A stretch of DNA of 64,000 bases from Sulfurimonas sp. HSL-1656 (GTDB lineage Bacteria > Campylobacterota > Campylobacteria > Campylobacterales > Sulfurimonadaceae), in contig NZ_CP147915.1 of assembly GCF_039645585.1 (NCBI RefSeq), positions 124,001 through 188,000 of the forward strand, written 5' to 3'. Positions within the stretch are counted from its first letter, which is position 1; every line of letters starts with the position of its first letter. Shown one piece after another: positions 21,965 through 55,777 of this stretch. Position numbers and translations under genes: made by a program. The notes under the pieces were generated by a model. The model did no database searches and was not told the DNA's origin. It saw only the letters and a program-made list of their open reading frames with translations.

Positions 21965-22034
21965 GTGGGAATGTTAAATGTATCTCTTGTTTTCGGAAGA
22001 AAACAAAAGCTTTAATGCCATAGCGGCAAGCGTA

Positions 22035-22059
22035 GAAAATCGGGCTTTGCACGGTTTTC
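22035..22059 (+). repeat. TTT-loop hairpin element, copy C
   Basis: An 11-bp stem GAAAATCGGGC / GCACGGTTTTC with a TTT loop, one G-A mismatch at pair 9, preceded by AAGCGTA and followed by GTTTTC. It lies in the 107-base spacer between tRNA-Leu(TAG) and tRNA-Arg(TCT). Copies A (38455) and B (55011) share the loop, the stem length and the flanks. Confidence 0.5.
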
Positions 22060-22071
22060 GTTTTCAATAAG

Positions 22072-26991: not shown

Positions 26992-27189
26992 TTAACGCCG
27001 GACTTTACGGTTACCGCGGTTTTTCTCCTTGAGTCGGGTAATAACATCCTTGAGACGCTCTTTTTCCGCGAGCAGTTCGTCGCGGACCAGGTGCTCCTCA
27101 CCGCCGTCCACTTCCGGGTCATACTCCATCACTTCGGGCTCGTAATCTTTGTAGGGATCGTTTTGGGGTGTTTTATTTTCCTTGCTCAT
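26992..27189 (-). CDS. small charged hypothetical protein
   Basis: A 65-residue, acidic-then-basic protein (YEPEVMEYDPEVDGGEEH, then KERLKDVITRLKEKNRGNRKVRR). The second half is likely one long helix. No family is recognised. It is divergent from the glycine-zipper lipoprotein gene at 27343. Confidence 0.55.
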   Translation of the reverse strand: MSKENKTPQNDPYKDYEPEVMEYDPEVDGGEEHLVRDELLAEKERLKDVITRLKEKNRGNRKVRR

Positions 27190-36779: not shown

Positions 36780-37853
36780 GTGATTATTCTCGGTTCGACC
36801 GGCTCCATCGGTGTCAACGCCCTGGCGATTGCCGAGCGCTTTTCGCTCAACGTCGAGGCCCTCGTTGCCGGCAACAGTATCGACCGGCTCAACCGGCAGA
36901 TCGAGAAGCACCGCCCCAATTGGGTCGTCATCGCGAACGAAGCGGATATCCCCAGGGTCAACCACCCCAACGTCCTGAGCGGCGAGGAGGCGATCCTGCG
37001 GGTGATCGAGGAGGCGGATTCCGAGTTCGTCGTCAATGCCCTGGTGGGCTTCCTGGGGCTTCGCCCGACCCTCAAGGCGCTCGAGCGCGGCAAAAAGGTC
37101 GCCCTGGCGAACAAAGAGTCCCTGGTAGCGGCGGGGGCCTTTATTGATACCTCCCGCATCCATCCCATCGACAGCGAGCATTTCGGGCTCTGGTACCTTC
37201 TCAATGACAGCCGCCCGGTGAAAAAGATGACCATTACCGCCAGCGGCGGGGCGTTCCGGGACTGGCCGCTTGAGAAGCTCTCAACGGCGACGCTGGAAGA
37301 CGCCCTCAAGCACCCCAACTGGTCCATGGGGCAGAAGATCACCATCGACAGCGCCTCAATGATGAACAAGCTCTTCGAACTGCTCGAAGCGCGCTGGCTC
37401 TTCGGGGAGCTCGATTACGACGCCATCATAGAGACCCGTTCGCTCATCCACGCCTTTGTCGACTTCGCCGACGGTTCGACGACGGCGCACATTGCCGGGG
37501 CGAACATGCAGCTGCCGATCGCCTACGCCCTGATGGGCAAGGTCGAGGAGCAGATCCTTGAGCCCGTGGACCTGCTGAAAGTCGGCGGCCTGGAGTTCCG
37601 CGAGATCACGCAGGAGCGCTACCCGGTCTGGCAGATCAAGGAGGCGCTGCTGCGCGAACCGCAGCGCGGGGCTGTCGTCAATGCCGCCAACGAGGCGGCC
37701 ATCGCGCAGTTCATTGCCGGGAAGATCGGTTTTCTTGACATCTCCCGCCGGGTCGTCGATGCCTTTGAGCATTTTGACCGGGTTCCGGGGAGCGTCGAGG
37801 AGGTCTTTGCCATCGACGAAGAGGTACGCGCCTACGTGGGGGCAATGTCATGA
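36780..37853 (+). CDS. dxr: 1-deoxy-D-xylulose-5-phosphate reductoisomerase
   Basis: Dxr makes 2-C-methyl-erythritol phosphate, the first committed step of the MEP isoprenoid pathway. The 357-residue protein starts at a GTG. It has GSTGSIGVNALAI for NADPH at the N-terminus, ALANKESLVAAG, TASGGAFRDWP, and HPNWSMGQKITIDSASMMNK with the metal-binding residues. It is somewhat shorter than the usual 390-400 residues but typical of this lineage. It overlaps the following hydrolase by 4 bp. Confidence 0.95.
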   Translation: MIILGSTGSIGVNALAIAERFSLNVEALVAGNSIDRLNRQIEKHRPNWVVIANEADIPRVNHPNVLSGEEAILRVIEEADSEFVVNALVGFLGLRPTLKALERGKKVALANKESLVAAGAFIDTSRIHPIDSEHFGLWYLLNDSRPVKKMTITASGGAFRDWPLEKLSTATLEDALKHPNWSMGQKITIDSASMMNKLFELLEARWLFGELDYDAIIETRSLIHAFVDFADGSTTAHIAGANMQLPIAYALMGKVEEQILEPVDLLKVGGLEFREITQERYPVWQIKEALLREPQRGAVVNAANEAAIAQFIAGKIGFLDISRRVVDAFEHFDRVPGSVEEVFAIDEEVRAYVGAMS

Positions 37854-38389
37854 GCAAAAAGGTCCTTCTGCTGCACGGCTGGGGCGGCAGCGACTACCCG
37901 CACTGGCAGAGCTGGCTGGCGGGAGAGCTGGCCAAAAATTACGGCACCGTGAGCTTCCCGCTGCTCGACCATCCCCACTTCCCCTCCAAGAACCGCTGGA
38001 TGCGTCAGGTGAAAGCGTTGCTGGAGGCGTTCAAACCCGACGTCGTCATCTGTCACTCCCTGGCGAACACCCTCTGGTTTCATCTCTGCCATGAGGGGGA
38101 GATCGCACCGGTAGAAAACCTCTTTCTCATCGCCCCGCCGCGGCTTGACTGCGAGATCGAGACGATCAAGAGCTTCTTCCCGGTCACGCCGCCTGCAAAC
38201 CTCTTTGCCGAAAACGTGCAGCTGGTGACGTCGACGACGGACCCCTATATGACGCCGGAGGAGGCGCAGGCCCTGCAGCGCGCACTGAATGTCCCCATGA
38301 CGGTACTGCAAGACGCCGGCCATATCAACGCCGACAGCGCTTACGGCGAATGGCCATGGATCCTGGAACGAGTCAGGGAGTGTATATAG
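37850..38389 (+). CDS. RBBP9/YdeN family serine hydrolase
   Basis: A 179-residue alpha/beta hydrolase of the RBBP9/YdeN group. VLLLHGWGGSDYPHWQSWL is the start of the fold, ICHSLANTLW holds the nucleophile Ser of the HS-x-x-N site, the Asp is in TTDPYM, and the His in DAGHINADSAYGEWPW. The substrate is unknown; RBBP9 relatives act as aminopeptidases or acyl hydrolases. The gene closes the cdsA-dxr run. Confidence 0.88.
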   Translation: MSKKVLLLHGWGGSDYPHWQSWLAGELAKNYGTVSFPLLDHPHFPSKNRWMRQVKALLEAFKPDVVICHSLANTLWFHLCHEGEIAPVENLFLIAPPRLDCEIETIKSFFPVTPPANLFAENVQLVTSTTDPYMTPEEAQALQRALNVPMTVLQDAGHINADSAYGEWPWILERVRECI

Positions 38390-38454
38390 TGTCGATTTGT
38401 AAGAAGCGCAAGGCGCTGTGAGCTTGCTGCTGAAGCAAACCCAGTGTTAACGCA

Positions 38455-38479
38455 GCCGCCGGGGCTTTGCTCCGGTGGC
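38455..38479 (+). repeat. TTT-loop hairpin element, copy A
   Basis: GCCGCCGGGGC (38455-38465), TTT, GCTCCGGTGGC (38469-38479) form an 11-bp stem with G-T pairs at positions 4 and 9. It follows a smaller hairpin AGCGC/GCGCT at 38405-38417 and the spacer GAAGCAAACCCAGTGTTAAC. It ends 31 bases before tsaD. Copy B at 55011 has the same loop and the same two wobble pairs with different stem sequence. Confidence 0.65.
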
Positions 38480-38510
38480 GTATCAAAAATAAAATGGAAA
38501 AGGCCTCTTT

Positions 38511-39488
38511 TTGATTTTATCAATAGAAAGCAGCTGCGACGACAGTTCTATCGCGATCACCGAGATAGCGACAAAGAAACTCGTCTACCATAAGAAGATC
38601 TCCCAGGAGCTGGAGCATGCCGTCTACGGCGGGGTCGTGCCGGAGCTGGCGTCAAGGCTGCACGCCGAGGCGCTGCCGAAGATCCTGGAGGAGTGCAAGG
38701 GGTGGTTCGGGCAGCTCAAGGCCGTTGCCGTCACGAACGCACCGGGGCTCTCCGTCACCCTGGTCGAGGGGGTCACGATGGCCAAGGCACTCAGCCTGAC
38801 GCTGGACATTCCGCTTATCGGCGTCAACCACCTCAAGGGGCATATCTATTCGCTCTTTATCGGGAAAGAGACACGGTTCCCGCTGACGGTGCTGCTCGTC
38901 TCCGGTGGGCATACCCAGGTGATCGAGGTGGGGAGCCTGGAGCGGATGGAAACGGTGATGCGGACCATGGACGACAGCTTCGGGGAGAGCTTCGACAAGG
39001 TCGCGAAGATGATGGGGCTGGGCTACCCCGGCGGGCCGGTCATCGAGAAGCTGGCCCTGGGGGGTGACCGGGAGCGCTACCCCTTCCCCATCCCGCTGCA
39101 GAAGCGGGGGGAGATGGCGTTCAGCTACTCGGGGCTCAAAAACGCCGTCCGTCTGGCCGTCGAGGAGGGCAGCGAAGCGGATTACCCCGACATCGCGGCC
39201 TCGTTCGAGCACATCGCGACCGAGCACCTCTTTCGAAAGTTACGAAAATATTTCAAAACCCGGCCGCCCAAACGCTTTGCGATCGTCGGGGGCGCCAGCG
39301 CCAACCGCTACCTGCGCGGGCGCATCGAGGAGCTGTTGTCACCTTACGGCGCCGAACTGCTGTTGGCGGAACTGCAGTACTGCTCGGATAATGCGGCGAT
39401 GATCGGGCGGATCGCCGTCGACCTTTACGAAGCAGGGGCATTCACCTCTATCGCCGAGCTCCATAGCGCACCCAAATCTGATTTTTAA
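38511..39488 (+). CDS. tsaD: tRNA N6-adenosine threonylcarbamoyltransferase, catalytic subunit
   Basis: TsaD moves the threonylcarbamoyl group to A37 of ANN-decoding tRNAs (t6A), with TsaB and TsaE. The 325-residue protein begins at a TTG at 38511. It has [13 protein letters not shown] at the N-terminus, [11 protein letters not shown] (metal site, with HLKGH where many have HMEGH), and the ASHK/ATPase core [11 protein letters not shown] and [11 protein letters not shown]. Length fits the shorter Campylobacterota form. Copy A of the hairpin element lies just upstream. Confidence 0.93.
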
Positions 39489-53158: not shown

Positions 53159-53710
53159 ATGAAAGTGACACTCGCGCAGATTCCGTTTCTCGCCAACCGC
53201 GTCGCCGTCGAACTGGCGCGCAGCGGACTGGTGACGATGACGCAGGGGATGGACCCTATTGTCGCCGAAGCGAAAAAGATACTCGAAGAGAGCGTAAAGC
53301 AGGAGGCGGCCCTCGAAGCGCGCGTCAAGGAGATCGTCAACGATAACGAAGACGAGATCGACTTCTACCAGGCGGATGACCGCCAGCTCTTCTTCATGAT
53401 CAAGAAGAAGCTCGCACCCGAGTACGGGGTCATCCTCTCTTATGAAGACCGCTTTTCGGACCTGGCGCACAAGATCCTCGACGCGATCTACGAGGAGGAC
53501 CTGATGAACTACGACGTCAGCGAAAACCGCCTCAAAAACATCATCTACGACGCGATCACCTCCTTTATTGCGGACAACGATGAGATCGAGCGTGCGGTGA
53601 ACGAGAAGATGAAGTCGTTCCAGAAACAGCTCATCCCGGGCACGGATGAGTACGAACTGCGGTTTGAAAAACTCTACCGCGAAGAGCTGACCCGGAGGGG
53701 GCTTGCATGA
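53159..53710 (+). CDS. DUF507 family protein
   Basis: A 183-residue cytoplasmic, mainly helical protein of the DUF507 family. Features seen are VAVELARSGLVTM, a long acidic coiled segment (AKKILEESVKQEAALEARVKEIVNDNEDEIDF) and a repeat-like second half (AHKILDAIYEEDLMNYDVSENRLKNIIYDAI). The function is unknown. It overlaps the carA start by 4 bp, an order typical of Campylobacterota. Confidence 0.85.
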   Translation: MKVTLAQIPFLANRVAVELARSGLVTMTQGMDPIVAEAKKILEESVKQEAALEARVKEIVNDNEDEIDFYQADDRQLFFMIKKKLAPEYGVILSYEDRFSDLAHKILDAIYEEDLMNYDVSENRLKNIIYDAITSFIADNDEIERAVNEKMKSFQKQLIPGTDEYELRFEKLYREELTRRGLA

Positions 53711-54834
53711 AAACAGCATGGATCTATCTTGAAAACGGCACCTATTTCGAAGCGATGAGCTTCGGTGCCGAGACGACGGCGGTCGGCGAGATCGTTTTCA
53801 ATACGTCGATGAGCGGCTACCAGGAGATTGCGACGGACCCCTCCTACGCCGGACAGTTCGTTACGTTCACGATGCCAGAGATCGGCAATGTCGGTGCGAA
53901 CGCCGAAGATATGGAGAGCACGGCAGCGCACGCGAAGGGGATTATCGTCCGCCAATACCAGCCGCGCTACTCCAACTTCCGCGCCGAGGAGTCCCTCGAC
54001 GCCCTGCTGAAGCGCCACGGTGTCATGGGGATCTGCGATATCGATACCCGCTACCTTACGAAGATGCTCCGCAGCGAGGGGGCGATGATGATGGTCGCCT
54101 CTACCGAGATCAGCGACAAAGATGAGCTGAAAAAGGTGCTCGAGAGCTCTCCGCGCATCGAAGAGGTGAACTACATCGAGCAGGTAAGCACCAAAGAGGC
54201 TTACAAGCATACGAACGGCACCTACGATGCGGTCAATTTCCGTTACAACGACGCGCCTGATGTGCAGGCACGCATCGTCGCGATGGACTTCGGCGTCAAA
54301 CGCAATATCCTGAATGAGCTGACCCAGGCGGGGATCGCCGTCGAGGTCGTACCGAATTCCATCGAAGCCGAGATATTGATCGCGCGCTACGAGGCCAAAG
54401 AGATCGACGGCGTGTTCCTCTCCAACGGTCCTGGGGATCCGCTCGTGCTGAAACGGGAGCAGGAGACGATCAAGAAACTGATCGCGCACAAAGTCCCGAT
54501 GTTCGGGATCTGCCTCGGGCACCAGCTGCTCTCCATCTCCCACGGTTATGACACCTTCAAGCTCCGGTTCGGTCACCACGGCGGCAACCACCCGGTGAAG
54601 AACGTCAAAACGGGCATGGTCGAGATCACGGCGCAGAACCACAACTATAACGTGCCTGAAAACATTACCGACATCGCTTCGGTCACGCACACGAACCTCT
54701 TTGACGGTACGATCGAGGGGCTGCGCTACAATGACGCCCCGATCTTTTCGGTGCAGCACCACCCCGAAGCGAGCCCGGGCCCGAAAGACAGCGAATACGT
54801 CTTCGGCGAATTCCTCACGCTCATGAAGCGCTAA
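53707..54834 (+). CDS. carA: carbamoyl-phosphate synthase small subunit
   Basis: CarA hydrolyses glutamine and passes ammonia to CarB to make carbamoyl phosphate for arginine and pyrimidines. The 375-residue protein has the N-terminal CPSase domain (TSMSGYQEIATDPSYAGQ) and the glutaminase domain with Cys in MFGICLGHQLLSI, and His/Glu in QHHPEASPGP. Length is typical. carB is not adjacent. A promoter and structured leader for the next gene follow immediately (54862-55048). Confidence 0.95.
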   Translation: MKTAWIYLENGTYFEAMSFGAETTAVGEIVFNTSMSGYQEIATDPSYAGQFVTFTMPEIGNVGANAEDMESTAAHAKGIIVRQYQPRYSNFRAEESLDALLKRHGVMGICDIDTRYLTKMLRSEGAMMMVASTEISDKDELKKVLESSPRIEEVNYIEQVSTKEAYKHTNGTYDAVNFRYNDAPDVQARIVAMDFGVKRNILNELTQAGIAVEVVPNSIEAEILIARYEAKEIDGVFLSNGPGDPLVLKREQETIKKLIAHKVPMFGICLGHQLLSISHGYDTFKLRFGHHGGNHPVKNVKTGMVEITAQNHNYNVPENITDIASVTHTNLFDGTIEGLRYNDAPIFSVQHHPEASPGPKDSEYVFGEFLTLMKR

Positions 54835-54867: not shown

Positions 54868-54906
54868 CAGATGCAAGAAGATCAGAACAAGGCAAAAAGC
54901 ACCAAG

Positions 54907-54978
54907 GGTGCGCGGGCACCATAGAGGCACTTCCTTCGGTCGCCTGCTGCCGAAGCATGCAGCGGAGCGAAATTTCGC
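54907..54978 (+). other. three hairpins in the TauE/SafE-like leader
   Basis: The leader holds GGTGC/GCACC (54907-54911, 54916-54920), CTTCGG/CCGAAG (54934-54939, 54950-54955) and the 12-base palindrome GCGAAATTTCGC (54967-54978). Together with copy B at 55011 they make the stretch unusually structured. A cis-regulatory RNA or a small RNA is possible. No known riboswitch class is recognised. Confidence 0.4.
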
Positions 54979-55010
54979 AGCGTAGCGAGGACAAACAATC
55001 AGAAAGCGTA

Positions 55011-55035
55011 GGCGAAAGGGCTTTGCTCTTTTGCC
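55011..55035 (+). repeat. TTT-loop hairpin element, copy B
   Basis: GGCGAAAGGGC (55011-55021), TTT, GCTCTTTTGCC (55025-55035) form an 11-bp stem with G-T pairs at positions 4 and 9. It is preceded by AAAGCGTA and followed by GTAT. Stem positions 2, 5, 6 and 7 differ from copy A at 38455 with the opposite base changed to match. Confidence 0.65.
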
Positions 55036-55048
55036 GTATGGAGCGACA

Positions 55049-55777
55049 GTGACATCAATAGAGTGGACGGCTATTATTACCTTTGCCCTCCTGGGCTCCA
55101 TCGGTCACTGCATCGGGATGTGCGGGGGCTTCATTGTTACCTATACGACCGCAAAGATCAAACCCCGCTTCTCCAAAACCCGGAGCGCTTTTTATCACTT
55201 CCTCTATAATATCGGGCGTGTGACGACCTATACGCTCTTCGGTGCGCTCTTTGGCTATTTCGGTTCGTTCTGGGACGTCAGCCCCCTGGCACGATCCATT
55301 ATGTATGCCGTCGCCGGGGTCATGATGATCCTCATGGGCCTCTCCTTTGCCGGGAAACTGAAGTTTCTCACCTCTATTGAAGTGCCTATCACAAACTACA
55401 GCTGGTTCAAGCGGGTCTTCACGGCGCAGCTGACGTCGGCCACGCCGATGAGTTTTTATATCCTGGGCGTGCTCAACGGCCTTTTTCCCTGCGGCCTCGT
55501 CTACACGATGCTCGTCACGGCGACGACGACGCAGTCGGCGCTCTACGGTGCCGCCGTCATGGCGATTTTCGGGCTCTTTACGATCCCCACTCTCTTCTCC
55601 TTCGCCTACGTGGTAGGGATTTTCTCCCAGACCAAGTTCCGCAGCGTCATGATCCAGCTCGCTGCCGTGACGGTCATCGCTTTCGGCGGCTGGACGCTGA
55701 TGAAGGCTTACGTTCAGTTCGATAAGTGGTATAATGCCCCGCAGACACAGCTGCAAAACGGCAAGTTACCTTCTTAA
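55049..55777 (+). CDS. TauE/SafE-family membrane protein
   Basis: A 242-residue protein with about six membrane helices. SIGHCIGMCGGFIVTYTT and LNGLFPCGLVYTMLV contain the paired cysteine motifs of the DsbD_2/UreH-like TauE/SafE family. In many proteobacteria a member of this family sits beside the cbb3 genes and is thought to help copper or redox delivery for oxidase assembly; ccoN starts 268 bases downstream. The start was placed at GTG 55049 (GGAG 5 nt upstream); a TTG at 55031 would fall inside copy B of the hairpin element. Confidence 0.82.
   Translation: MTSIEWTAIITFALLGSIGHCIGMCGGFIVTYTTAKIKPRFSKTRSAFYHFLYNIGRVTTYTLFGALFGYFGSFWDVSPLARSIMYAVAGVMMILMGLSFAGKLKFLTSIEVPITNYSWFKRVFTAQLTSATPMSFYILGVLNGLFPCGLVYTMLVTATTTQSALYGAAVMAIFGLFTIPTLFSFAYVVGIFSQTKFRSVMIQLAAVTVIAFGGWTLMKAYVQFDKWYNAPQTQLQNGKLPS

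Follow-up and report, generated by a model that had tools for sequence, protein, structure and literature searches.

Two distant intergenic hairpins of Sulfurimonas sp. HSL-1656, A and B, are the 3' hairpin of a larger element of about 84 nt that contains two pseudoknots. It is practically certain that this element represents a real, dispersed and structurally constrained repeat family of free-living Campylobacterota. Its copies are dispersed, and the two-pseudoknot fold is kept on one strand; as to its mover and mechanism, we infer a non-autonomous REP-like mobile element that works in the form of a folded single DNA strand, an explanation that we consider somewhat probable. Three copies lie in the window, i.e., the whole stretch of 64,000 nucleotides analyzed here (positions 124001–188000 of a genome consisting of one contig of 2,556,179 bases, 2.56 Mb). 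The features of the window are as follows:

21987..22063, + strand: third copy, variant type 2, missed by the sequence-only reading; 5' hairpin 21987–22006, AAGCTTTA at 22007–22014, pseudoknot GCC/GGC, hairpin 22035–22059
37850..38389, + strand: serine hydrolase gene (PF06821) before copy A
38406..38416, + strand: copy A, 5' hairpin GCGC-AAG-GCGC (sequence; aligned family)
38421..38437, + strand: copy A, pseudoknot 1, helices AGC (38421–38423)/GCT (38429–38431) and TGCT (38425–38428)/AGCA (38434–38437) (covariation, 59 copies)
38438..38452, + strand: copy A, pseudoknot 2, helices AAC (38438–38440)/GTT (38446–38448) and GT (38444–38445)/AC (38450–38451) (covariation)
38452..38484, + strand: copy A, GTAG-type tag (GCAG, 38452–38455), TTT-loop hairpin (38455–38479) and GTATC (sequence, covariation)
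38511..39488, + strand: TsaD-domain gene (PF00814) after copy A
53707..54834, + strand: carbamoyl-phosphate synthase small chain gene before copy B
54898..55040, + strand: copy B, whole enlarged element (sequence; G005 orthologous site)
54899..54911, + strand: copy B, 5' hairpin GCACC-AAG-GGTGC (sequence)
54963..54994, + strand: copy B, palindromic insert GCGGAGCGAAATTTCGCAGCGTAGCGAGGACA, present in other copies as well, in either orientation (sequence; other copies)
55011..55035, + strand: copy B, TTT-loop 3' hairpin (sequence, covariation, covariance model)
55031..55777, + strand: DsbD_2 membrane protein gene after copy B

Hairpin A is GCCGCCGGGGC-TTT-GCTCCGGTGGC and hairpin B is GGCGAAAGGGC-TTT-GCTCTTTTGCC. 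The features first noticed in them from the sequence were all found again when it was reread: the 11-bp stem and TTT loop, the G-T combinations at pairs 4 and 9 in both copies, the compensatory differences at stem pairs 2, 5, 6 and 7, the GTAT directly 3' of both hairpins and the small upstream palindrome, which is the 5' hairpin listed above. Copy A has the canonical form, with its 5' hairpin 16 nt after the stop codon of the serine hydrolase gene. Copy B is enlarged by two inserted hairpins (about 54918–54941 and 54955–54990) and its pseudoknot 2 is decayed or lost, while its orthologue in genome G005 has the short canonical form. The DsbD_2 gene probably has its true start at a GTG near 55050, so that the hairpin of copy B would abut the gene start. 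The third copy sits between tRNA genes of the opposite strand.

The kinship of A and B exceeds chance. A search of the genome for the loop motif GGGCTTTGC gave several intergenic matches with a common upstream block, AGCGTTAGCGTAG, and with an outer stem that varies freely and always keeps its complementarity. In an alignment of seven copies with one gap column, 96% of the stem cells are paired, against up to 76% in shuffled alignments and about 50% in slid versions. Compensatory changes thus persist beyond the original pair of copies: six of the 11 pairs are altered on both sides, which was reached by 0–2 of 500 shuffles. These seven copies served to build a covariance model of 50 nt (R1, the core of the element), which revealed 24 copies in the genome (E-values from 5.6e-12 to 0.0025). 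Both outcomes that would have spoken against the initial observation, a lack of additional copies and differences without compensation, are excluded.

The conserved unit of about 84 nt was delimited in 93 copies that lack an insertion in the upstream part. From 5' to 3' it consists of the 5' hairpin, pseudoknot 1, pseudoknot 2, the GTAG tag, the 11-bp TTT-loop hairpin and CGT. The 5' hairpin has a variable stem (GCGC-AAG-GCGC or GCGCGGTTTAYCTGCGC). Pseudoknot 1 is of the H-type, RGC-N-NNNY-GCY-GA-RNNN, and in it the RGC of GYGRGC pairs with the GCY located in the loop of the small stem NNNY-GCYGA-RNNN. Pseudoknot 2, also H-type, is AAC-NN-AGY-GTT-A-RC, where AAC pairs with the GTT in the loop of AGY-GTTA-RC. 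The tag and 3' hairpin follow the pattern GTAG-NNNNNN-GGGCTTTGCTC; the tip of the 11-bp stem is GGGC-TTT-GCTC, and CGTNY follows it. In addition, we found a second subtype composed of a hairpin, AAGCTTTA and GCC...GGC; pseudoknot 2 holds in it too, the middle pair being CG 12 times and GC four times among 18 copies from complete genomes.

Covariation was evaluated in an alignment of 59 copies. In this alignment 98.7% of 1357 cells are paired (97.5% in the 11-bp stem), compared with 30–45% in slid-structure controls, and all five helices covary. Double changes were found in 16 of 23 pairs and in 281 cells, while shuffles gave 85 ± 8. They affect all four pairs of the S2 helix of pseudoknot 1, and the R-Y pair of the same pseudoknot is GC in 32 copies and AU in 27, with zero exceptions. 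In 41 copies from complete genomes that were not picked by pattern, the Y-R pair of pseudoknot 2 is CG 25 times and TA 16 times. The pseudoknots are not a search artefact, since their helices lie outside model R1. The tag (columns 61–64 of alignment A3) has G, A and G at its first, third and fourth positions in 59 of 59 copies, with T in 58 and C in one at the second. With the near-invariant loop-adjacent G-T pair set aside, there are 53 G-T and three A-C mispairs. Such an excess would not arise from a cruciform of double-stranded DNA and therefore indicates that one strand folds, either as RNA or as single-stranded DNA; selection on a structure of one of these two kinds, as suggested from A and B, is thus borne out by both the covariation and the G-T excess.

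When relatives were searched with model R1, 37 of the 60 contained copies, at most 40 in a single genome. Class-wide, 45 of 298 genomes were positive at E ≤ 1e-4; the positive ones fall into four families, with genus g37 heavily loaded, and genomes bearing the element have one to four dozen copies. We also scanned 84,980 species genomes with an exact pattern and obtained matches in 65 contigs, of which 64 are titled as Campylobacterota and the remaining one (L148) only as 'bacterium'. The genera matched were Sulfurimonas, Sulfuricurvum, Sulfurovum, Sulfurospirillum, Hydrogenimonas, Nitratifractor, Arcobacter and unnamed relatives. No match was obtained in phage and plasmid records. Among viral contigs one of 17 pattern matches was genuine, a canonical copy (L196, 5684–5733) flanked by structural genes in a phage contig of 25.7 kb, which is a possible vehicle between hosts. 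None of the 4227 Rfam models matched at the gathering threshold, and none matched over the element at E-values up to 5 in six loci. In the literature searched on Sulfurimonas, Sulfurospirillum and Sulfurovum no description of the element of about 84 nt was found; the GTAG REP consensus of Sulfurovum (PMC3733652) entered this comparison by mention and not as sequence.

It should be mentioned that all 24 copies of the genome lie within the first 68% of the chromosome, and none was found in the last 0.81 Mb (1745637–2556179), for which the chance under uniform placement is about 1e-4. The corresponding region does carry copies in G004 and G007.

The element comes and goes between close relatives. 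We compared individual sites in four complete, syntenic genomes of the same genus (G000, G004, G005 and G007) with flanks of about 90% identity. G000 and G004 have copy A, and G005 and G007 lack it; copy B is missing from G007 only, the other three having it; and the copy at 27051 is shared by G000 and G007 and was not seen in G004 or G005. Five further sites were tested, of which four could be aligned, and all four were polymorphic. At site B the 3' end falls at CGTAT, and at other sites the flanks diverge beyond the element. For most empty sites the difference exceeds the element itself, and no clean or consistent target-site duplication was found at the compared sites. Apart from mostly single copies, we observed head-to-tail tandem arrays with a unit of 74–92 nt. 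Given this turnover, the copies look like tiny mobile elements. At the tRNA-spacer site (21987–22063 of the window), G000 and G005 contain the second subtype and G004 and G007 the first, in the same orientation; one subtype has been replaced by another there.

In the preferred explanation, the element would be spreading inside each host lineage, or would have done so until a short time ago, as a small mobile element comparable to REP elements and IS200/IS605 ends. Its strand exposed on the lagging-strand template would fold, a trans-acting nuclease or transposase would recognize the fold together with GTAG and excise or insert the element, and insertion would take place mostly beside gene ends. 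The orientation of the copies relative to replication fits this scheme. Of 180 copies from nine complete genomes, 122 have the folded strand on the lagging-strand template and 58 have it on the other, with the same direction in all nine genomes. After collapsing to one genome per genus, with arrays and rRNA-linked copies merged, the bias was 58:27 (p = 0.001). The origin was placed near coordinate 1, in agreement with the GC skew sampled in G000, G022, G031 and G055, and this position was assumed for the others. Such a bias fits elements that, like IS608 and ISDra2, use the single-stranded DNA of the replication fork (PMC6006769). The direction of genes is an unlikely cause of it, because in the Sulfurimonas genome 12 copies are antisense to both neighbors and only five are sense. 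Several points weigh against the mobile single-stranded DNA explanation: the pseudoknot helices are short (2–4 bp) and G-T pairing is free, both being commoner in RNA than in DNA; no mobilizing enzyme was found among the classes searched; there is no clean target duplication; and the lagging-strand bias is modest.

Rather unlikely, in our opinion, is that the element acts as RNA, its copies being kept because this RNA is of use to the host. It would then be a small RNA or an element of mRNA stability or processing, and its pseudoknots would be the binding site of a protein or small molecule. The compact H-type pseudoknots, the strong covariation and the G-U tolerance are typical of RNA, and in copies A and B and one further copy the folded strand is lower in energy than its complement. 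Against this, element orientation is independent of genes, as follows from the antisense preference just described and from the low-GC genomes, where the downstream gene is on the same strand in 16 of 31 cases. The 3' end of the element in the Sulfurimonas genome is often a few nucleotides from the stop codon of an opposing gene. No neighbor gene family recurs except at orthologous sites, the 3' hairpin is not followed by a U-run, sites turn over fast between species, and Rfam contains no match. Gene-independent orientation, the lack of a recurring gene class and site turnover all disfavor a small RNA or mRNA regulator; accordingly, of the two options offered by the sequence-only reading, the REP-like dispersed element stands as far as dispersal is concerned, and the stand-alone small RNA is disfavored.

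We give a low probability to the suggestion that this is an old, once mobile family that is now only inherited and lost, with its present turnover due to deletion and recombination. It would explain the sites common to several species, namely prfA/glmM (L038, L064, L146) and dnaK/grpE (L047, L071, L119), and the decay of some copies, such as B. Four identical copies in G035 (L257–L260) were considered as a recent transposition and rejected, since each of them, as read by eye, directly precedes the start of a 23S rRNA gene; their identity is ascribed to gene conversion that homogenizes them with the rRNA operons, as an old family would allow. The opposite is indicated by single genomes in which copies at unrelated sites are nearly identical (L092, L105, L116, L125, L130) and have 3' tails peculiar to that genome, by long identical tandem arrays and by the fold, which is fully conserved in most copies.

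It is similarly improbable that the element truly belongs to the GTAG-REP/RAYT system as a REP whose RAYT was lost from the Sulfurimonas genome, the pseudoknots being a decoration on the REP hairpin. According to the published rule, REPs have GTAG (GYAG) 0–2 nt 5' of a hairpin with a stem of 7–20 bp and a loop of 2–5 nt (PMC6006769; see also PMC3733652). In all 59 aligned copies GTAG or GCAG stands immediately 5' of the hairpin, and the stem of 11 bp (10–11 bp) and loop of 3 nt lie within these ranges. GTAG and CGTC repeats are also recorded for Sulfurovum NBC37-1 by Di Nocera et al. (2013), in a mention known here without the sequence (PMC3733652), and REPtrons can be lost. With GTAG-REPs, including E. 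coli REPs and their RAYTs (Di Nocera et al., 2013; Quentin et al., 2018), the element has in common dispersed, intergenic locations beside gene ends, a GTAG/GYAG abutting a short-loop hairpin, compensatory stem changes, G-T pairs and single-strand logic.

The differences are considerable. A REP unit has 20–40 bp; the element is longer, at about 84 nt, and its tag is preceded by a conserved 5' hairpin and two pseudoknots. REPs form pairs in opposite orientation (BIMEs) and number in the hundreds; the element occurs mostly as single copies or in head-to-tail arrays, which are rare in REPs, and in tens of copies. For REPs, one or more copies are expected no farther than about 1 kb from a RAYT gene, whereas at 20 Y1_Tnp loci, a subset of the Y1 loci, we found neither element copies nearby nor a flanking pair of GTAG hairpins, and a looser search of three Y1 loci and one 20-kb region detected no element either. 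It had been suggested that the genome be checked for a RAYT; Y1_Tnp (PF01797; RAYT/IS200) is absent from it. Across the 60 relatives Y1_Tnp and the element show no correlation (Fisher p = 1.0), and 12 genomes with at least 10 copies, this one and 11 others, lack Y1_Tnp. Because of the misfit in size, copy number, tandem orientation and RAYT linkage, we describe the element as working like a REP or an IS200 end and do not file it as a REP. Similarly, it resembles IS200/IS605 and their non-autonomous derivatives in the subterminal one-strand fold, the preference for the lagging-strand template and the tiny non-autonomous units, and differs from them in that the genome has no Y1 transposase, no linkage was seen at the loci searched and no conserved target tetranucleotide was found.

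Retrotransposition of a structured RNA in a SINE-like way via reverse transcriptase, to which the RNA-like fold alone would point, is hardly credible and largely refuted unless a non-RVT_1 enzyme acts, as RVT_1 is absent from the Sulfurimonas genome and from G004, G005, G006, G007, G021, G022, G035 and G055, with 20–40 copies each. Thus, neither Y1 HUH/RAYT proteins nor reverse transcriptase track the element.

A search for Y2 HUH (IS91-like) transposases was negative in all 60 genomes, the control genomes being equally silent. Integron attC sites are, like the element, folded single-stranded recombination sites near stop codons and in tandem arrays; unlike the cassette arrays of attC, the element is dispersed. 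This candidate was rejected, since there are no RYYYAAC/GTTRRRY arms closing one long imperfect hairpin and the integrase is patchy. The AAC and GTT of the element are 5 nt apart in a pseudoknot, and GTTARCG does not fit GTTRRRY. Integron integrase (TIGR02249, above the cut-off) was found in only 13 of the 60 relatives, and the Sulfurimonas genome gave no match above the cut-off. The integrase gene of G007 (contig 1, 973383–974324) is among the genuine Campylobacterota integron integrases, and there is no element at its locus. BOX, ERIC and similar repeats are also modular, structured and intergenic, with optional inserted modules; BOX and ERIC are set apart from the element by another sequence and phylum, and neither is known to carry two conserved pseudoknots.

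REP-like repeats are common, and their movement and purpose are still debated. The present family combines a rich, statistically supported single-strand fold and clear gain and loss between close species with the absence of a RAYT, which makes the question of what moves REP-like elements without a RAYT testable in culturable chemolithotrophs. We put forward as a tentative possibility that this is a new protein-free mobile nucleic acid of about 84 nt, in which a tandem-pseudoknot single strand could be the signal for an undiscovered mobilizing enzyme in several Campylobacterota families, and which could enter phages. The structure model allows the elements to be annotated across Campylobacterota, where they are now unannotated intergenic sequence.

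Two further observations concern sequences associated with the element. The palindromic module TAGCGNAGCGGAATTYCGCARYGNAGYGAGGACAA, located at 54963–54994 of the window, was also revealed inside the copies of L052, L059, L061, L040 and L051 in either orientation, and probably represents another dispersed repeat that these genomes contain. In L050, upstream of the copy at 640632 of the Sulfurimonas genome, a microsatellite-like run of GAGTTAA heptamers follows straight after a stop codon and precedes the element.
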